NCBI RefSeq assembly: GCF_014083985.1
Contig: NZ_CP046907.1
Coordinates: 4,936,501 to 5,000,500 of the forward strand
Direction: 5' to 3'
DNA: 64,000 nt
Source of the DNA: Streptomyces sp. SCUT-3
GTDB lineage: Bacteria > Actinomycetota > Actinomycetes > Streptomycetales > Streptomycetaceae
Within the stretch, counting starts at the first letter, position 1. The number at the start of each line of letters is the position of its first letter. A model generated the notes under the pieces. That model was not told the DNA's origin and made no database searches. It worked only from the letters and a program-made list of their open reading frames with translations. Below, piece after piece: positions 4,489 through 34,009 of the stretch. A program made the translations under genes and the position numbers.

Positions 4489-6718
4489 CAGGCAGCACTC
4501 CTCACGTGGCGCACCAGCGAAGCGACGCTGTCGGCGCGCAGTTCGTCCAAGGTGACGGCCGTTCCGGCCAGGTCGCGGGCGAGGGCGCCCGCCAGTCCGA
4601 GCCGGACGGGGCCCGACTCGCAGTCCACGACCACCGACGCCGTTCCGTCGGCGGCCAGCAGCCGGGCGGCGCGCGAGGCCAGCGCGACGGCCCCGCCCGA
4701 ACCGGCCCCGCCCGAACCGGCCCGGCGCGGGCCGTCGGCCGTCGTCCCGGCGGCGGGCGCCGCGGCCGGGGCCGGGCCGGTGCCGGTGGTGATGCCGGTG
4801 GCGGTGCTGGTGGCCCGGCCGTCGGTGACCACGACCAGCAGCGGACGCCGCGAGGCGTCGCGCATCCGCTCGACGCGCAGCACCTCGCGGGCCTTGAGCA
4901 GCCCGGCGGCCAGCGGGGTACGGCCGCCGGTCGGCAGCGACCGCAGGCGCGCCGCGCCCGCCTCCACCGAGGAGGTCGGCGGCAGCGCCACCTCGGCGCC
5001 CGCGCCCCGGAAGGTGACCAGCCCCACCTTGTCGCGGCGCTGGTAGGCGTCGAGCAGCAGCGACATCACCGCGCCCTTGACTGCGCCCATCCGCTGCCGG
5101 GCGGCCATCGAGCCGGAGGCGTCCACCACGAACAGCACCAGGTTGCCCTCGCGGCCCTCGCGCACCGCCTGCCGCAGGTCGTCGCGGCGCAGCACCAGGC
5201 CCGGGCCGCTGCGGCCCCGGGCCCGCTGGTGCGGGGCGGCGGCCTGCACGGTCGCGGCCAGGTGCAGCGAGGTCAGGGCCCCCCGGGGCGGCGGGCGCGG
5301 GTGGTGCGGCCGTGGTCGGTCTCGGCGCGCGAGCGCCGCCCGGCGGCGCCGCTGCCCAGGCCGGGGACGGTCAGAGTCCGCGCCCGGAACGGTTCGTCGG
5401 CCGCGACGGCCTCCTGCTCGCCGCCCCCGGGGCGTCCCGGACGGTCCTCGTCGCGGCCGTCCGGCTTCCGCCGCCCGGACGCCCCGGCCGGCTGCTCCTG
5501 CTCCTGCGAGGACTGCTCCTGCGAAGGCTGCTGCTGCGGCTGTTCCTGCGGCTCGGGGGCCTGCGGGTCGCGGTCCGCCCCGCTCTGCGGGGGGACGGTG
5601 TCCGGGGCGTCCTGCCGCGGTGGGCGGCCGCCCCGCCGGGGCCCCCGTCGTCGGGGCCGTCGCCGCCGTCACCGCCGCCGGGGCCGCCCGGGTCCGGCTC
5701 GTCGTCCCCGCCGCCGTGTTCGCGCAGGGTCTCGTCGAGCTTGTCCTCGTCCAGGCCGGGGGCGTCGAACGGGTTGCGCCGGCGGCGGTGGGGGAGGGCC
5801 AGCAGCGCGGCCCGCCGCACGTCCTCGGCGGTGACGTCCCGGCGCCCCTCCCAGGCGGCGAGCGCGGTGGCGGTGCGGGCGGTGACGATGTCGGCGCGCA
5901 TGCCGTCCACCTCGAACGCCGCGCACACCGCCGCGATCTGGTGCAGCGCCGCGTCGCCGAGCCGCACCGACGGCAGCAGGGCCCGGGCGGCGGCGATCCG
6001 CTCGCGCAGCGCCCGCTCCTCGTCCGCCCAGCGGGCGGCGAAGCCGGCGGGGTCCTCCTCGAACGCCAGCCGGCGCCGCACGACCTCCACCCGTTGGCGC
6101 GGCTCGCGGGAGGCGGCGACCTCCACGGTCAGGCCGAACCGGTCGAGCAGCTGCGGGCGCAGCTCGCCCTCCTCCGGGTTCATCGTGCCGACGAGCAGGA
6201 ACCTGGCGGCGTGCCGCACCGACACGCCCTCGCGCTCGACGTGCGAGGCGCCCATGGCGGCCGCGTCCAGCAGCAGGTCGACCAGGTGGTCGCCCAGGAT
6301 GTTGACCTCGTCGACGTAGAGCACGCCGCGGTGCGCCGCCGCCAGCAGGCCGGCTCGAACGCCTTCTTCCCCTCGGCGAGGGCGCGTTCGATGTCCAGCG
6401 CGCCGAGCAGCCGGTCCTCGGAGGCGCCGACGGGCAGCTCCACCATGCGGGCCGGGCGGGCCTCGCCGGCCGCGGTGTCGTGCGGCCCGTCCGGGCACTG
6501 CGGGTCCGGGGCGGCCGGGTCGCAGGAGAACCGGCAGCCCGGCACGACGGGGACGTCCGGCATCAGTGCGGCCAGCGCCCGCACGGCGGTCGACTTGGCG
6601 GTGCCCTTCTCGCCGCGCACCAGCACGCCGCCGACGGCCGGCGACACGGCGTTGAGCAGCAGTGCCAGCCGCAGGTCGTCCATGCCGACGATCGCGGTGA
6701 ACGGGTAGGGGTGGCTGC

Positions 6719-29715: not shown

Positions 29716-30534
29716 TCAGCCGGCCGGGGCCGGCTGACCGTCGCGCTGTTCCTGCGCGGCCCGCTGCGCGAGGAGGTCCTTGCGCTCGCGCCGCACCAGG
29801 ATCACCCAGCCCACCGGGACCATGGCGGCGAACAGCCACCACTGCAGGGCGTAGGCGAAGTGCGCGCCGATGCCGGAGTGGTCCGGCTCGGGGACGGGAT
29901 CGGGCTGCCCGCCCGACGGCTCCGGCTCGGTCCCGGTCAGTTCGACGTAGCCGCCGAGCACGGGCGCGCCCAGGTCGGCGGCCCGCTGTTCGCTGTTGAT
30001 GAGCATGACCTGGCGGTCGGGCATGCCCGGCTTGTCCTTGATCCCGCTGTTCGCGGTGGTCTCGTCCGCCCGCAGTCGGCCGGTGACGGTGACCTCGCCC
30101 GCGGGGGCCTGCGGCACGTCGGGGAACCGGGTCAGGTTGCCCGGGGCCGGGATCCAGCCGCGGTTGACCAGGACGGCCCGGCCGCCGTCCAGGCGCAGGG
30201 GGGTGAGCACGTAGTAGCCGATGCTGGCCCCGTCGGCGCCGGTGCGCTGGCGGACGACCACCTCGTGGCGGGCGTCGTAGCGGCCGGTGGCGGTCACGGT
30301 CCGCCACACGTCCTCGCGCCGGACCTCCGCACCGGGGGAGGAGAGCTCGGTGACGGGGACGGCGGGATCCGCCAGGTTCCTCGCGATGAGCTCGTTGTTG
30401 GCCACGCGCCGCTCGTGCCGGTGCATCTGCCAGAAGCCCAGCTCGATCATTCCGGGGATGAGCAGCAGAGCCACCAGCGTGAGGATCACCCACTGGCGGG
30501 ACAACAGGAAGCGGTACACGCACCGACGGTACAT
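29716..30534 (-). CDS. SURF1 family cytochrome oxidase assembly protein
   Basis: 272 residues with the SURF1 plan: an N-terminal membrane helix (QWVILTLVALLLIPGMIELGFWQMHRHERR), a periplasmic domain (GRYDARHEVVVRQR, YYVLTPLRLDGGRAVLVNRGWIP) and a C-terminal helix (FAYALQWWLFAAMVPVGWVILVRRE). It helps insert heme a into the aa3-type oxidase. An internal GTG six codons downstream is an alternative start. It stands alone here, without cox genes. Confidence 0.93.
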   Translation of the reverse strand: MYRRCVYRFLLSRQWVILTLVALLLIPGMIELGFWQMHRHERRVANNELIARNLADPAVPVTELSSPGAEVRREDVWRTVTATGRYDARHEVVVRQRTGADGASIGYYVLTPLRLDGGRAVLVNRGWIPAPGNLTRFPDVPQAPAGEVTVTGRLRADETTANSGIKDKPGMPDRQVMLINSEQRAADLGAPVLGGYVELTGTEPEPSGGQPDPVPEPDHSGIGAHFAYALQWWLFAAMVPVGWVILVRRERKDLLAQRAAQEQRDGQPAPAG

Positions 30535-30570: not shown

Positions 30571-30822
30571 TCAGCCCGCCGGAATGCTCCCCACCCGGTC
30601 GACGAGCCGGGCCTCGCCCTCCGCCTTCGCGCAGTGCGCGCAGCAGTACCAGCGCCCGTCCGCCTCGACCCCGTGCCCGACGATCTGCACCCGGCAGTGC
30701 TCGCAGATCGGCGCCATCCGGTGGATCGCGCACTCGAAGCAGTCGAAGACGTGGACCGCGCCCTGGGCGTGGACCTCGAAGCTCATGGAGTAGTCGTTTC
30801 CGCAGACCTCGCAACGTGCCAT
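30571..30822 (-). CDS. Small zinc-ribbon protein
   Basis: 83 residues from ATG 30822. Four Cys clusters, CEVC (residue 4), CFEC (about 34), CEHC (about 46) and CCAHC (about 66), plus a His, suggest two zinc ribbons. Conserved in Streptomyces near surF-like genes, but without a known role. The upstream in-frame extension is Ala/Pro-rich and unlikely to be translated. Confidence 0.83.
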   Translation of the reverse strand: MARCEVCGNDYSMSFEVHAQGAVHVFDCFECAIHRMAPICEHCRVQIVGHGVEADGRWYCCAHCAKAEGEARLVDRVGSIPAG

Positions 30823-30905
30823 GCACCCAGCGTGGGCAGCAGCGGCCGATGCGGCAACCGGAGGGGGGACGGCAGCGCGGCCCGTCACCCGTCCGGCGCA
30901 CCCGG

Positions 30906-30960: not shown

Positions 30961-33048
30961 TCACCTGGCCGACGACACCCCGTGGGCGCGGGCCACCTCG
31001 TCCAGCTCCTCGCGGTAGCCCTGCCCCCAGGAGCGGAAGCGCCAGCCGCCGCCGCGCCGGTACACCTCGGCCAGGACCAGCACCCGCTCCTCGGTCGCCG
31101 CGTCGAGCACGGTGCGCGCGAACACCTCGCCGCCGCGCGGCCCGATCCCGACCTCGACCGGGCCGACCGCGCCGAAGCCGGCCCCGGCGCCGCGGGGCAG
31201 GGCGAGGGCGACCGCCATCCGCTCGGCCCCGGCGGGGAGGGCGTCCAGGCGCAGGGTGAGCGCGGCGGCGGCCCGCGACGCCCCCTCGATCGCGACCGCC
31301 CCGGACGGGTGCGCGGGGTGCTCCCGGGTGACGAAGCAGGAGTCGTCCGGCACGCGGCCGTCGGGGCCGAGCACGAGGGCGACCAGTTCGGGGGCCGGGT
31401 CGCAGTCGTCGCGCCACAGGGCGGAGAGGGTCCAGCGCCGCCCCGAGGAGACGTCCGGAAGGTCCGCCACGCCTCCGCGGACCAGTTCCAGGGGCCCCGG
31501 GCGGTCCGCCGGGGCGGGATCCGCCGCTCCCGCGGGGCTCCCGGACGCGTCGGTGCTGAACAGCACGCCGCTCTCCTCGGCGCCCGCCGAGGGGTCGCGC
31601 CAGGTGCCGGCCGCGGCGGGCGGGAGCAGGGAGGCCGGGTCGATCCTGGGCAGGCCGGCCGCGGCGGCCCGTGCGGCCCGAGGGTCGTCCTCCCCGCCGG
31701 GGAGCACGACGACGGCGTCCACGGAGCGGGTCAGGTTGACCCGCACGCGGTCCCCGCGCGCGGCGAGCAGGCCGCGGACCCGTTCCGCCTCGGCCCGCTC
31801 CCCGGGCCCGGAGAGCACCAGCACCTGCCGTCCCGCGGCGGGGGCGCCGTCGCGGTCCGCGGGACGGGCCGGGGCCGCCCCGCCCGCCTCGCCCGGGGTG
31901 GGGCCCGCCGCCGGGAGCTCCGCGGCGGCCTCCCCGGCCCGGCCGTCCGCCGCTTCGGCTGCGTCCGCCGCTTCGGCGATCTCGGTGTCGCCGAGGGCGT
32001 CCGGGGGCGGGGACTGCGGGGCGTCCAGCGGGGTCCCGGCCGGGGCGATCGTGGCCAGCAGCTGGAGGAAGGCCGCCTCGTCCACCACCGGGGTACCGTG
32101 CTCGCGGGCCTTGACCACCTTGCCGGTGGGGGAGTCGGGGTCGTTGGTGACCAGCAGGCTGGTCAGCCTGCTGACGCTGCCCGCCACGTGCAGCCCGGCC
32201 TCCGAGGCGCGGTCCTCCAGCAGTTCGCGGTCGGTCTCGGTGTCCCCGGAGAAGGCCACCCTCATGCCCTGCACCAGCGGCCCGTTCGGGTGCAGCCGGC
32301 CGGGGTTGGGGTGCGGGCACGGCGGCCGCTTGCGGGAGGGGCGCCAACTGCGCCACGACCCCCCGCCGTACGCGGACGACCCGTACGCGGACGACCCGTA
32401 GGCGGACGGCCCGGACGCGGAGCGGCCGGACGCGCCGCCGCCCGGCGCGGCGGGCGGACGGCAGGCGTGCAGGGGCAGGCGCAGGCCGGAGGCGGCGGCC
32501 AGGTGCAGGCTCGGGCGGAACGCCTCCGCCAGCACCCGCGCGTCGTCCAGCGCGTGGTGGGCGCGCCGCTGCCGGACGCCGTAGTGCGCGGCCAGCGACT
32601 CCAGCTTGTGGTTGGGCAGCGGCAGGCGCAGTTCCTTGGCGAGCACGATGGTGCACAGGCGGTTCTCCACCGGGGGGCGCCGGCCCAGCCGCGCGTACTC
32701 GGCGGAGACCATCCGCCAGTCGAACAGCGCGTTGTGGGCCACGAAGACCCGGCCGTCCAGCCGGGCGGAGAGCTCCTCAGTGATGTCCGCGAAGAGCGGG
32801 GCCGACTCCAGCACCTCGCTGGTCAGGCCGTGGATCCAGACCGGTCCCGGGTCGCGCTCGGGGTTGACCGGGGTGTACCAGTGGTCCTCCACCTCGCCGC
32901 GCGCGTCGAGGCGGTAGACGGCTGCGGAGACGATGCGGTCGTCCCGCTCCAGCCCGGTGGTCTCGACGTCCACCACCGCGTAGCCCGCGGGGTAGGAGTC
33001 GGGCCAGGGGAACGGTTCGGCGCTCGCCGAGAAGCGGTCTTCCAGCAT
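30961..33048 (-). CDS. DEDDh exonuclease - BRCT - TerD fusion protein
   Basis: 695 residues with three recognisable modules. Residues about 20-190: DnaQ-like 3'-5' exonuclease with AVVDVETTGL (Asp/Glu), FVAHNALFDWRM (Asp) and HHALDDARVLAEA (His/Asp). Residues about 265-350: BRCT domain (LVQGMRVAFSGDTETDRELLEDRASEAG, SLLVTNDPDSPTGKVVKAREHG), with a second BRCT-like stretch near 430-490 (RQVLVLSGPGERAEAERVRGLL). Residues about 540-695: TerD/stress domain (WTLSALWRDDCDPAPELVALVLG, SWGQGYREELDEVAR). ATG 33048 begins MLEDRF. Linkers are Ala/Pro-rich. Known as an actinobacterial architecture, but its role, perhaps nucleic-acid repair in stress, is untested. Confidence 0.88.
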   Translation of the reverse strand: MLEDRFSASAEPFPWPDSYPAGYAVVDVETTGLERDDRIVSAAVYRLDARGEVEDHWYTPVNPERDPGPVWIHGLTSEVLESAPLFADITEELSARLDGRVFVAHNALFDWRMVSAEYARLGRRPPVENRLCTIVLAKELRLPLPNHKLESLAAHYGVRQRRAHHALDDARVLAEAFRPSLHLAAASGLRLPLHACRPPAAPGGGASGRSASGPSAYGSSAYGSSAYGGGSWRSWRPSRKRPPCPHPNPGRLHPNGPLVQGMRVAFSGDTETDRELLEDRASEAGLHVAGSVSRLTSLLVTNDPDSPTGKVVKAREHGTPVVDEAAFLQLLATIAPAGTPLDAPQSPPPDALGDTEIAEAADAAEAADGRAGEAAAELPAAGPTPGEAGGAAPARPADRDGAPAAGRQVLVLSGPGERAEAERVRGLLAARGDRVRVNLTRSVDAVVVLPGGEDDPRAARAAAAGLPRIDPASLLPPAAAGTWRDPSAGAEESGVLFSTDASGSPAGAADPAPADRPGPLELVRGGVADLPDVSSGRRWTLSALWRDDCDPAPELVALVLGPDGRVPDDSCFVTREHPAHPSGAVAIEGASRAAAALTLRLDALPAGAERMAVALALPRGAGAGFGAVGPVEVGIGPRGGEVFARTVLDAATEERVLVLAEVYRRGGGWRFRSWGQGYREELDEVARAHGVSSAR

Positions 33049-33142: not shown

Positions 33143-34009
33143 ATGTTGCCGCTCATGCCGAACCTGCCAGACGTCGTCCTGTGGTCGATACCGGCTTTCG
33201 TCCTGCTCACCGTCGTGGAGATGGTGTCCTACCGGATCCACCCGGACGAGGACGCCGCCGGCTACGAGGCCAAGGACGCAGCCACCAGCGTCGGGATGGG
33301 CCTGGGCAGCCTGGTCTTCGACGCGCTGTGGAAGATCCCGGTCCTGCTGGTCTACTCCGCCGTCTACGCCCTGACCCCGCTGCGCGTGCCGGTCGAGTGG
33401 TGGACGCTGCTGCTGATGCTCCTCGCCCAGGACTTCTTCTACTACTGGTCCCACCGCGGCCACCACGTGGTCCGGATCCTGTGGGCCTGTCACGTCGTCC
33501 ACCACTCCAGCCGGAAGTTCAACCTGACCACCGCGCTGCGCCAGCCCTGGACGAGCCTCACCTCCTGGCCGTTCTACCTGCCGATGATCGCCTGCGGCGT
33601 CCACCCGGCGGCCCTGGCCTTCTGCTCCTCCGTCAACCTCGTCTACCAGTTCTGGATCCACACCGAACGGATCGACCAACTGCCGCGCCCGGTGGAGTTC
33701 CTGCTGAACACCCCCTCCCACCACCGGGTCCACCACGCCTCCCAGGGCGGCTACCTGGACCGGAACTTCGGCGGCATCCTCATCGTGTGGGACCGCCTGT
33801 TCGGCTCGTTCGCGGCCGAGACCGAGCGCCCCGTCTTCGGGCTGACCAAGAACATCGACACCTACAACCCGTTGCGGGTGGCCACCCACGAGTACGTCGC
33901 GATCGCTCGCGACCTGGCGGCCGCGACACGCTGGCGGGACCGGGCCGGCCACCTCCTCCGGGGGCCCGGCTGGCAGCCGGCGGCGCGCCGGGACGGGAGC
34001 GCCGGATGA
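33143..34009 (+). CDS. Sterol desaturase / fatty acid hydroxylase superfamily protein
   Basis: 288-residue integral membrane di-iron enzyme. The histidine clusters are DFFYYWSHRGHH, CHVVHHSSRKFN and NTPSHHRVHHASQGGYLDRNFGG, the order found in sterol C-5 desaturase-like hydroxylases and alkylglycerol monooxygenase relatives. Membrane spans occur at VVLWSIPAFVLLTVVEMV, VLLVYSAVYAL and TSWPFYLPMIACGV. Substrate unknown (lipid). ATG 33143 used; ATG 33155 is nearly as good. The lysoplasmalogenase gene overlaps its stop, suggesting joint ether-lipid metabolism. Confidence 0.9.
   Translation: MLPLMPNLPDVVLWSIPAFVLLTVVEMVSYRIHPDEDAAGYEAKDAATSVGMGLGSLVFDALWKIPVLLVYSAVYALTPLRVPVEWWTLLLMLLAQDFFYYWSHRGHHVVRILWACHVVHHSSRKFNLTTALRQPWTSLTSWPFYLPMIACGVHPAALAFCSSVNLVYQFWIHTERIDQLPRPVEFLLNTPSHHRVHHASQGGYLDRNFGGILIVWDRLFGSFAAETERPVFGLTKNIDTYNPLRVATHEYVAIARDLAAATRWRDRAGHLLRGPGWQPAARRDGSAG

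Follow-up and report, generated by a model that had tools for sequence, protein, structure and literature searches.

A DEDDh exonuclease of Streptomyces sp. SCUT-3 with a probable second BRCT and a loop-less TerD domain in its tail

The 64,000-nucleotide stretch of Streptomyces sp. SCUT-3 DNA analysed here, hereafter the window (positions 4936501-5000500 of the single 6.08-Mb contig NZ_CP046907.1; the genus is represented by one genome in the collection), contains a gene whose product joins a DEDDh 3'-5' exonuclease, a BRCT domain (BRCT1), a linker, a BRCT2-like region and a TerD domain in one chain of 695 amino acids. The gene is an unbroken open reading frame on the minus strand, 30961..33048, with an ATG at 33048 and a stop at 30961, and all features given below lie on that strand. 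The window protein is a real, conserved but patchily distributed variant of a known nuclease family. Judging from sequence comparison, we propose with a probability of roughly 0.5 that the gene encodes a PRK06063 DEDDh 3'-5' exonuclease with an optional BRCT2-TerD tail, and that this tail would serve as a docking or ligand-sensing module.

Three domains of the chain score above their curated Pfam cut-offs, namely RNase_T at residues 25-177 (75.6 bits; 32518..32976), BRCT at residues 256-330 (30.8 bits; 32059..32283) and TerD (PF02342) at residues 536-688 (55.8 bits against a gathering cut-off of 25.3; 30985..31443). The original prediction, which saw an exonuclease, a BRCT and a TerD in one complete chain, thus holds for these three in a single frame, but it did not mention a probable second BRCT at residues ~404-482 (31603..31839). 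An Ala/Pro-rich linker precedes this region (residues 346-403; 31840..32013), and tail-less relatives stop before or within the equivalent stretch. In 67 of 80 named relatives' loci, the match begins with an ATG at locus position 5001, while the remaining 13 have a different flank length or a match starting elsewhere; a longer, mechanically delimited frame from a GTG at 33210 is therefore unlikely. The coding pattern of G+C content by codon position persists through the tail, with third-position values (GC3) of 0.95 in BRCT2 and 0.98 in TerD, which argues against chance read-through. Together with the open frame and the same domain order elsewhere, it rules out a frameshift or read-through artefact.

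The exonuclease and BRCT1 constitute the core. The NCBIfam model NF004719/PRK06063 ('DEDDh family exonuclease'), which describes a known DnaQ-like family of actinobacteria, matches residues 12-338 with 430.6 bits, above its cut-off of 389, and positions 9-313 of its 331 are covered. The model ends soon after BRCT1, whereas the window protein carries ~350 extra residues with the BRCT2-like region and TerD. All five DEDDh residues of the catalytic site (D27, E29, D110, H164 and D169) are present in the window protein. In an alignment of 132 distinct rows, D110, H164 and D169 were invariant (114/114 unfused and 18/18 fused), and D27 and E29 were present in all 114 unfused rows and in 17 of the 18 fused ones, the sole gap being a truncated window locus. 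Loss of nuclease residues in orthologues, which had been named as evidence that would count against the fusion, was thus not seen, and 3'-5' exonuclease activity is expected of the window protein from its conserved residues. Core identity was 72-79% to 20 aligned named Streptomyces-related loci (family f1, taken as Streptomycetaceae; L, G, g and f numbers are our labels for loci, genomes, genera and families), and the Streptomyces members of PRK06063 share their SURF1 surroundings with the window gene. Such cores are widespread among Streptomyces-like bacteria. They are not universal, as 15 of 118 class genomes matched NF004719 at 1e-60.

The best-scoring NF004719 members that we found belong to genus g20. 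Four g20 homologues (L204-L207) end in HQLALF, DQYALF, AQLALF or QQFALF, so that QxALF is present in 4/4, and we take these ends to resemble the sliding-clamp binding motif. By pattern scan, none of the 18 fused rows has a QxALF-type C terminus (one has an internal QVAPF), and the sliding-clamp pattern, which marks a replicative epsilon (DnaQ) subunit near its C terminus, had no match in the window protein or in the Streptomycetaceae rows scanned. The g20 homologues differ from the fused proteins, which have BRCT2-TerD at the place of the QxALF terminus, and from the tail-less Streptomycetaceae rows, which have neither. In L204, the divergent neighbour carries a GTNGKSTTT motif, presumably that of Mur ligases, and we call this neighbour murT-like. 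Since MSMEG_6275 is described as sitting divergent to murT in excerpts of PMC10050696, we read the g20 gene as a mycobacterial DnaQ homologue; on this basis g20 is taken as Mycobacterium and its gene as one of the Rv3711c/MSMEG_6275 type.

To compare the window gene with relatives that lack the tail, 110 tail-less loci (L012-L121) were used, a non-random sample of 80 named loci, the best of 401 confirmed matches, and 30 others that were likewise best matches. All 110 have an exonuclease-BRCT frame without BRCT2 or TerD that ends 0-90 residues past the model end (median 1), and SURF1 lies near the core gene in 109 of them. L118 and L081 end in Pro/Ala-rich stubs of 69 and 90 residues. When the TerD part of the window protein was searched against these loci by tblastn, five weak matches were obtained (L018, L023, L036, L104 and L119; E 7e-4 to 5e-3), which we take as noise. 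Separate genes in relatives had been named as another contrary outcome; these relatives do lack the tail at the same locus, but no TerD gene was found adjoining their core genes. In a check free of best-match choice, core and tail searches were compared on the same 61 genomes. A core match above the cut-off was present in 51 of these, and only in the window did a tail match of E < 1e-24 lie beside such a core; the core matches of the other fused genes in the 61 genomes were below the cut-off.

Fused proteins recur elsewhere within the class. The genome searches scored the best 30, 8 or 6 candidates per genome, so that the numbers of fused genes given here are minima. With a tail query and the frames read, at least 12 of 101 family genomes, counting that of the window, were seen to encode a complete exonuclease-BRCT-BRCT2-TerD protein; the fused gene of G037 is split across two short contigs, and that of G099 has a broken frame. 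A BRCT2-TerD profile was matched with at least 259 bits in 12 of 296 class genomes (138 bits for the next best), of which six are from family f1, four from f18 and two from f4. The exonuclease is in the same frame in 10 of these 12, and G322 has only BRCT2-TerD and G348 only TerD. In a phylum sample, the profile was matched in 5 of 396 genomes at 1e-45, all within the class. A full protein is present in Nocardia farcinica NCTC11134 (NZ_LN868939.1), and another (L218) is carried by Streptomyces sp. NBC_01340 on a mobilizable linear plasmid of 1.7 Mb (NZ_CP108366.1); therefore, the family can move. SURF1 was absent from all 20 of the 14-kb stretches that surround fused genes or remnants of them. 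Degraded copies of the fused gene, with TerD only (L165/L188), BRCT2-TerD only (L162/L199) or a broken frame (L147/L202), were also observed, as signs of repeated decay. Among openly licensed PMC papers, we found none that joins TerD, BRCT and exonuclease, and none of the titles or abstract openings listed describes the fusion.

The first part of the tail, residues ~404-482, is probably a degenerate BRCT, based on profile comparison. The region is conserved in the fused relatives, with seven invariant positions in 16 sequences that include the N of an NLT motif and the L and G of LPGG. When a 16-member profile of it was searched against the PDB, the best two matches were the DNA ligases 2owo and 5tt5, although only at E 0.013, over positions 3-75 of 85 and ligase residues 596-667 and 616-687. 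We take the matched ligase stretch to be the LigA BRCT, which is consistent with the LigA model matches of BRCT1. Comparison by hhalign with BRCT1 of the same proteins gave P 0.0013 over 52 columns at a probability of just 18%, and P was 0.025 with TerD and 0.47 with the exonuclease. Pfam BRCT (PF00533) matched the region in 0/16 members. In an hmmsearch of two plasmid records with the BRCT2 profile, the second matches, over BRCT1, were below threshold (0.7 and 2.8 bits) and too weak to count.

The end of the tail belongs to the TerD family. It aligns with the solved TerDs 3ibz (E 1.6e-9) and 2kxt (E 4.4e-9), which presumably come from Streptomyces coelicolor and Klebsiella, respectively, and the C-terminal strand motif is kept, the TerD end ERVLVLAEVYRRGGGWRFRSWGQGY being retained in the window protein. 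In 3ibz, 2kxt and the TerDs of this genome (L001-L003), the FVF strand is followed by an acidic loop, TGDN.TG.G.GDDE, that we take to be the Ca2+ site. This GDN...GDDE loop is absent from all 17 aligned fused TerDs, the window included; its position reads EGASRAAAA in the window and is a short stretch such as DGPAEQ in the 16 others. Most of the acidic D.DFVF strand is also missing from the window TerD. According to a citation in excerpts of PMC8123226, Klebsiella TerD binds Ca2+. The original prediction had extended calcium binding to this TerD, and with the acidic loop missing this part of it is probably wrong, as judged from the alignment; calcium regulation is set aside as the leading reading for the same reason. 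The window TerD further differs from the solved TerDs in being fused to a nuclease and in lying outside any ter cluster. Elsewhere in the genome, the closest TerD match has its end at 4916622, and the TerD of the fused gene begins at 4967464-4967485. Partnership with ter genes was considered and had no neighbourhood support, either at the window locus or in the 20 stretches around fused genes.

To follow the history of the tail, trees were constructed from 42 tail-less and 17 fused sequences, leaving out the duplicate or truncated window loci L008, L122, L129 and L158. The exonuclease-BRCT1 tree of 59 rows was rooted, by choice, on four rows of f4/g20, and a warning was raised that long branches join at its root. 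Its fused rows do not form a single clade, and the fused label needs five changes. Holding all fused rows together was rejected by the approximately unbiased test (p-AU 1.2e-5). The window row is nested within the tail-less Streptomycetaceae, with Shimodaira-Hasegawa-like approximate likelihood ratio (SH-aLRT) support of 100 for 36 rows, 99 for the 33 without L119-L121 and 83 for the 32 without L118. The test rejected a placement of the window core with the fused genera g2 and g5 (p-AU 3.2e-4) and weakly rejected a grouping of the tail-less Streptomycetaceae rows that leaves the window out (p-AU 0.035). In the tail tree, the window tail joins the g2/g5 tails at 100/99. The tail is thus either old and lost several times, or was regained at the window locus. 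Across six pairs of fused genes from other genomes, ratios of non-synonymous to synonymous substitution (dN/dS) were 0.08-0.25 in BRCT2, 0.06-0.25 in TerD and 0.12-0.29 in exonuclease-BRCT1, with one pair (L163/L164) near synonymous saturation. Values of 0.06-0.25 indicate that the tail matters to those bacteria. Because other genomes have the same arrangement and keep it by purifying selection, the link between nuclease and TerD is real as a protein architecture; the original prediction is supported to this extent, and membership of a ter gene cluster is not supported.

Considering that the calcium loop is absent and that relatives at the same gene are tail-less, we suggest that the tail directs the enzyme and does not place it under calcium control. 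The core of exonuclease and BRCT1 would trim or proofread 3' ends, and the C-terminal end of the exonuclease would be a swappable address. The BRCT pair and TerD would not make catalysis Ca2+-driven; they may instead place or switch the nuclease, with Ter-type stress assemblies or a nucleotide-like ligand as possible targets of the tail. It has been proposed that TerB and TerD detect signals of a nucleoside or nucleotide nature during stress and in the exclusion of phages (excerpts of PMC7159879 and PMC7824862), and such sensing would fit a nuclease switch.

Several observations weigh against the proposal of a docking or ligand-sensing tail. The BRCT2-like region has the hhalign probability given above and no Pfam match, and it was poorly modelled by AlphaFold, with a mean predicted local distance difference test score (pLDDT) of 37.3 for the tail alone and 49.4 for the whole protein with 20 tail-less relatives; only BRCT1 was well modelled (pLDDT 84-94 over residues 251-340). 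No ter or repair gene adjoins the window gene, whose neighbours are SURF1, GH15, SDR and fatty-acid-hydroxylase family genes. The nearest studied relatives, the mycobacterial DnaQ homologues, reportedly have no proofreading role in standard culture: in M. tuberculosis, proofreading was attributed to the DnaE1 PHP domain, leaving these homologues no such role (Rock et al., as cited in excerpts of PMC4731781). The same excerpts describe an epsilon exonuclease of M. tuberculosis that was reconstituted with Pol III. Finally, the window's own tail is the fastest of 17, with an end branch of 1.34 against 0.68 for the N-terminal core, and 9 of 41 positions invariant elsewhere have changed in it, compared with 0-6 in the 16 other rows. 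As the most diverged copy, it could be non-functional in the window species and may be decaying or losing its role.

This divergence leads to the strongest competing explanation, in which the tail is a relic here: the fused form would be old, most Streptomycetaceae would have lost the tail, and the window copy would be losing it, with only exonuclease-BRCT1 at work. The nested position of the window row among tail-less rows and the weak rejection of a tail-less grouping without it fit this explanation, as do the truncated or broken copies elsewhere (G348, G322 and G099) and the Pro/Ala-rich stubs at the ends of L118 and L081. However, the frame is open and the coding signal intact throughout the 1 kb of tail, the TerD end is kept, and recombination could have restored the tail at the window locus. 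On balance, we consider a relic plausible yet somewhat unlikely.

TerD domains are also found on a second type of exonuclease, which we denote group B in distinction from the window type, group A. Group B (L148-L153) comprises proteins of ~750-890 amino acids in six genomes of g2, g5 and g15, with the order exonuclease, helical region, BRCT-like region, long Pro-rich linker and TerD. In the three group B proteins examined, only RNase_T and TerD were above the Pfam cut-offs and BRCT was not; the term BRCT-like rests on tblastn with the window BRCT1, at 33-41% identity in five of the six loci (not L153), and on a match to the PADLOC model PDC-S48. L149 matches this model over 3-408 of 411 positions with 366.8 bits, and the window protein matches it with 253.1 bits in two stretches, not over the whole model. 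PDC-S48, read as exonuclease, helical region and BRCT-like region, resembles the window protein in having a DEDDh exonuclease followed by a BRCT, but its central helical region is missing from the window protein, and a profile of the group B helical region had no match in the window loci. TerB is a weak candidate identity for this helical part, PF05099 matching only at E 0.045 with 14.5 bits against a cut-off of 24.4 and ranking below three other sub-threshold matches. Of 19 fetched PDC-S48 loci, 15 encode the exonuclease together with the helical region in a single frame, and no TerD follows in that frame in any of the 15; the frame of L223 runs off the fetched stretch.

In a TerD tree of 51 rows, in which L008 stands for the window, the group A domains form one group (SH-aLRT 99) with the truncated or contig-split copies of the same type (L133, L147, L162 and L165), group B forms another (98), and A and B come together at 93. 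The p-AU values for this tree are disregarded, because these four truncated or split copies carried the label 'other' in that test. A related TerD tail is thus attached to two kinds of exonuclease core, both of which occur without it as well. A wider reading would make the loop-less TerD lineage a dedicated targeting or ligand-sensing tail of two exonuclease-BRCT cores, coupling the Ter stress system to DNA/RNA 3'-end processing, possibly nucleotide-gated and used in repair or anti-phage defence; we offer it tentatively and regard it as unlikely. In these conserved proteins, a TerD lineage is tied covalently to an enzyme whose activity can be assayed, the tie exists in two architectures, and orthologues that naturally lack the tail provide the controls; the long-standing question of what TerD domains do thereby reduces to the same nuclease with and without TerD.

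Alternatively, the exonuclease-BRCT-TerD proteins could be anti-phage effectors, as PDC-S48 suggests for group B, where PDC is taken by us to mean phage-defence candidate. In addition to the near full-length match of L149 and the score of the window protein, the window protein also matches a PADLOC CRISPR-associated DEDDh model at 111.5 bits, the distribution is patchy, and one full-length copy lies on the mobilizable linear plasmid. Against this, PDC is not mentioned in the two PADLOC papers searched, and the locus of the window gene is conserved and made up of ordinary genes. Moreover, PDC-S48 at 1e-60 lists 16 of 197 class genomes, and the window genome is included via another exonuclease and not via the window gene, which argues that the PDC-S48 match largely reflects a shared exonuclease subfamily. 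Even with the proposal that Ter systems exclude phages (excerpts of PMC7824862), we consider an anti-phage role of these proteins quite improbable. The weakest alternative is a Ca2+-regulated stress nuclease in which TerD would bind Ca2+ and switch the exonuclease, an idea consistent with Ca2+ binding by the Klebsiella protein and with the TerD fold detected by Pfam but rendered highly improbable by the missing TGDN...GDDE loop in the window and 16 other fused TerDs and by the loss of most of the acidic strand in the window.

With regard to gene surroundings, the neighbours of the other fused genes are not common across clades and are kept within close species (L190, L192 and L193). In f18, a gene of 381-437 amino acids recurs in three fused loci; in L196 and L197 it is the immediate neighbour of the fused gene, and in L199 it lies farther off. 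A promoter scan gave no promoter-like sites and two terminator-like sites. Directly downstream of the window gene is a gene for a small Cys-rich (CxxC) protein of 105 amino acids (30571..30888), which has a homologue in 100 of the 110 relatives' loci, belongs to no NCBIfam family and has only sub-threshold Pfam matches; it is reversed in orientation in some relatives' loci. The SURF1 family gene that marks the locus, assigned by Pfam and NCBIfam, is at 29716..30534. Within the window gene itself, the repeat scan and translation located a 15-base tandem repeat of 3.7-4.6 copies in the first linker (32366..32434), which encodes SAYGS-like repeats, so that the length of this linker may differ between strains.

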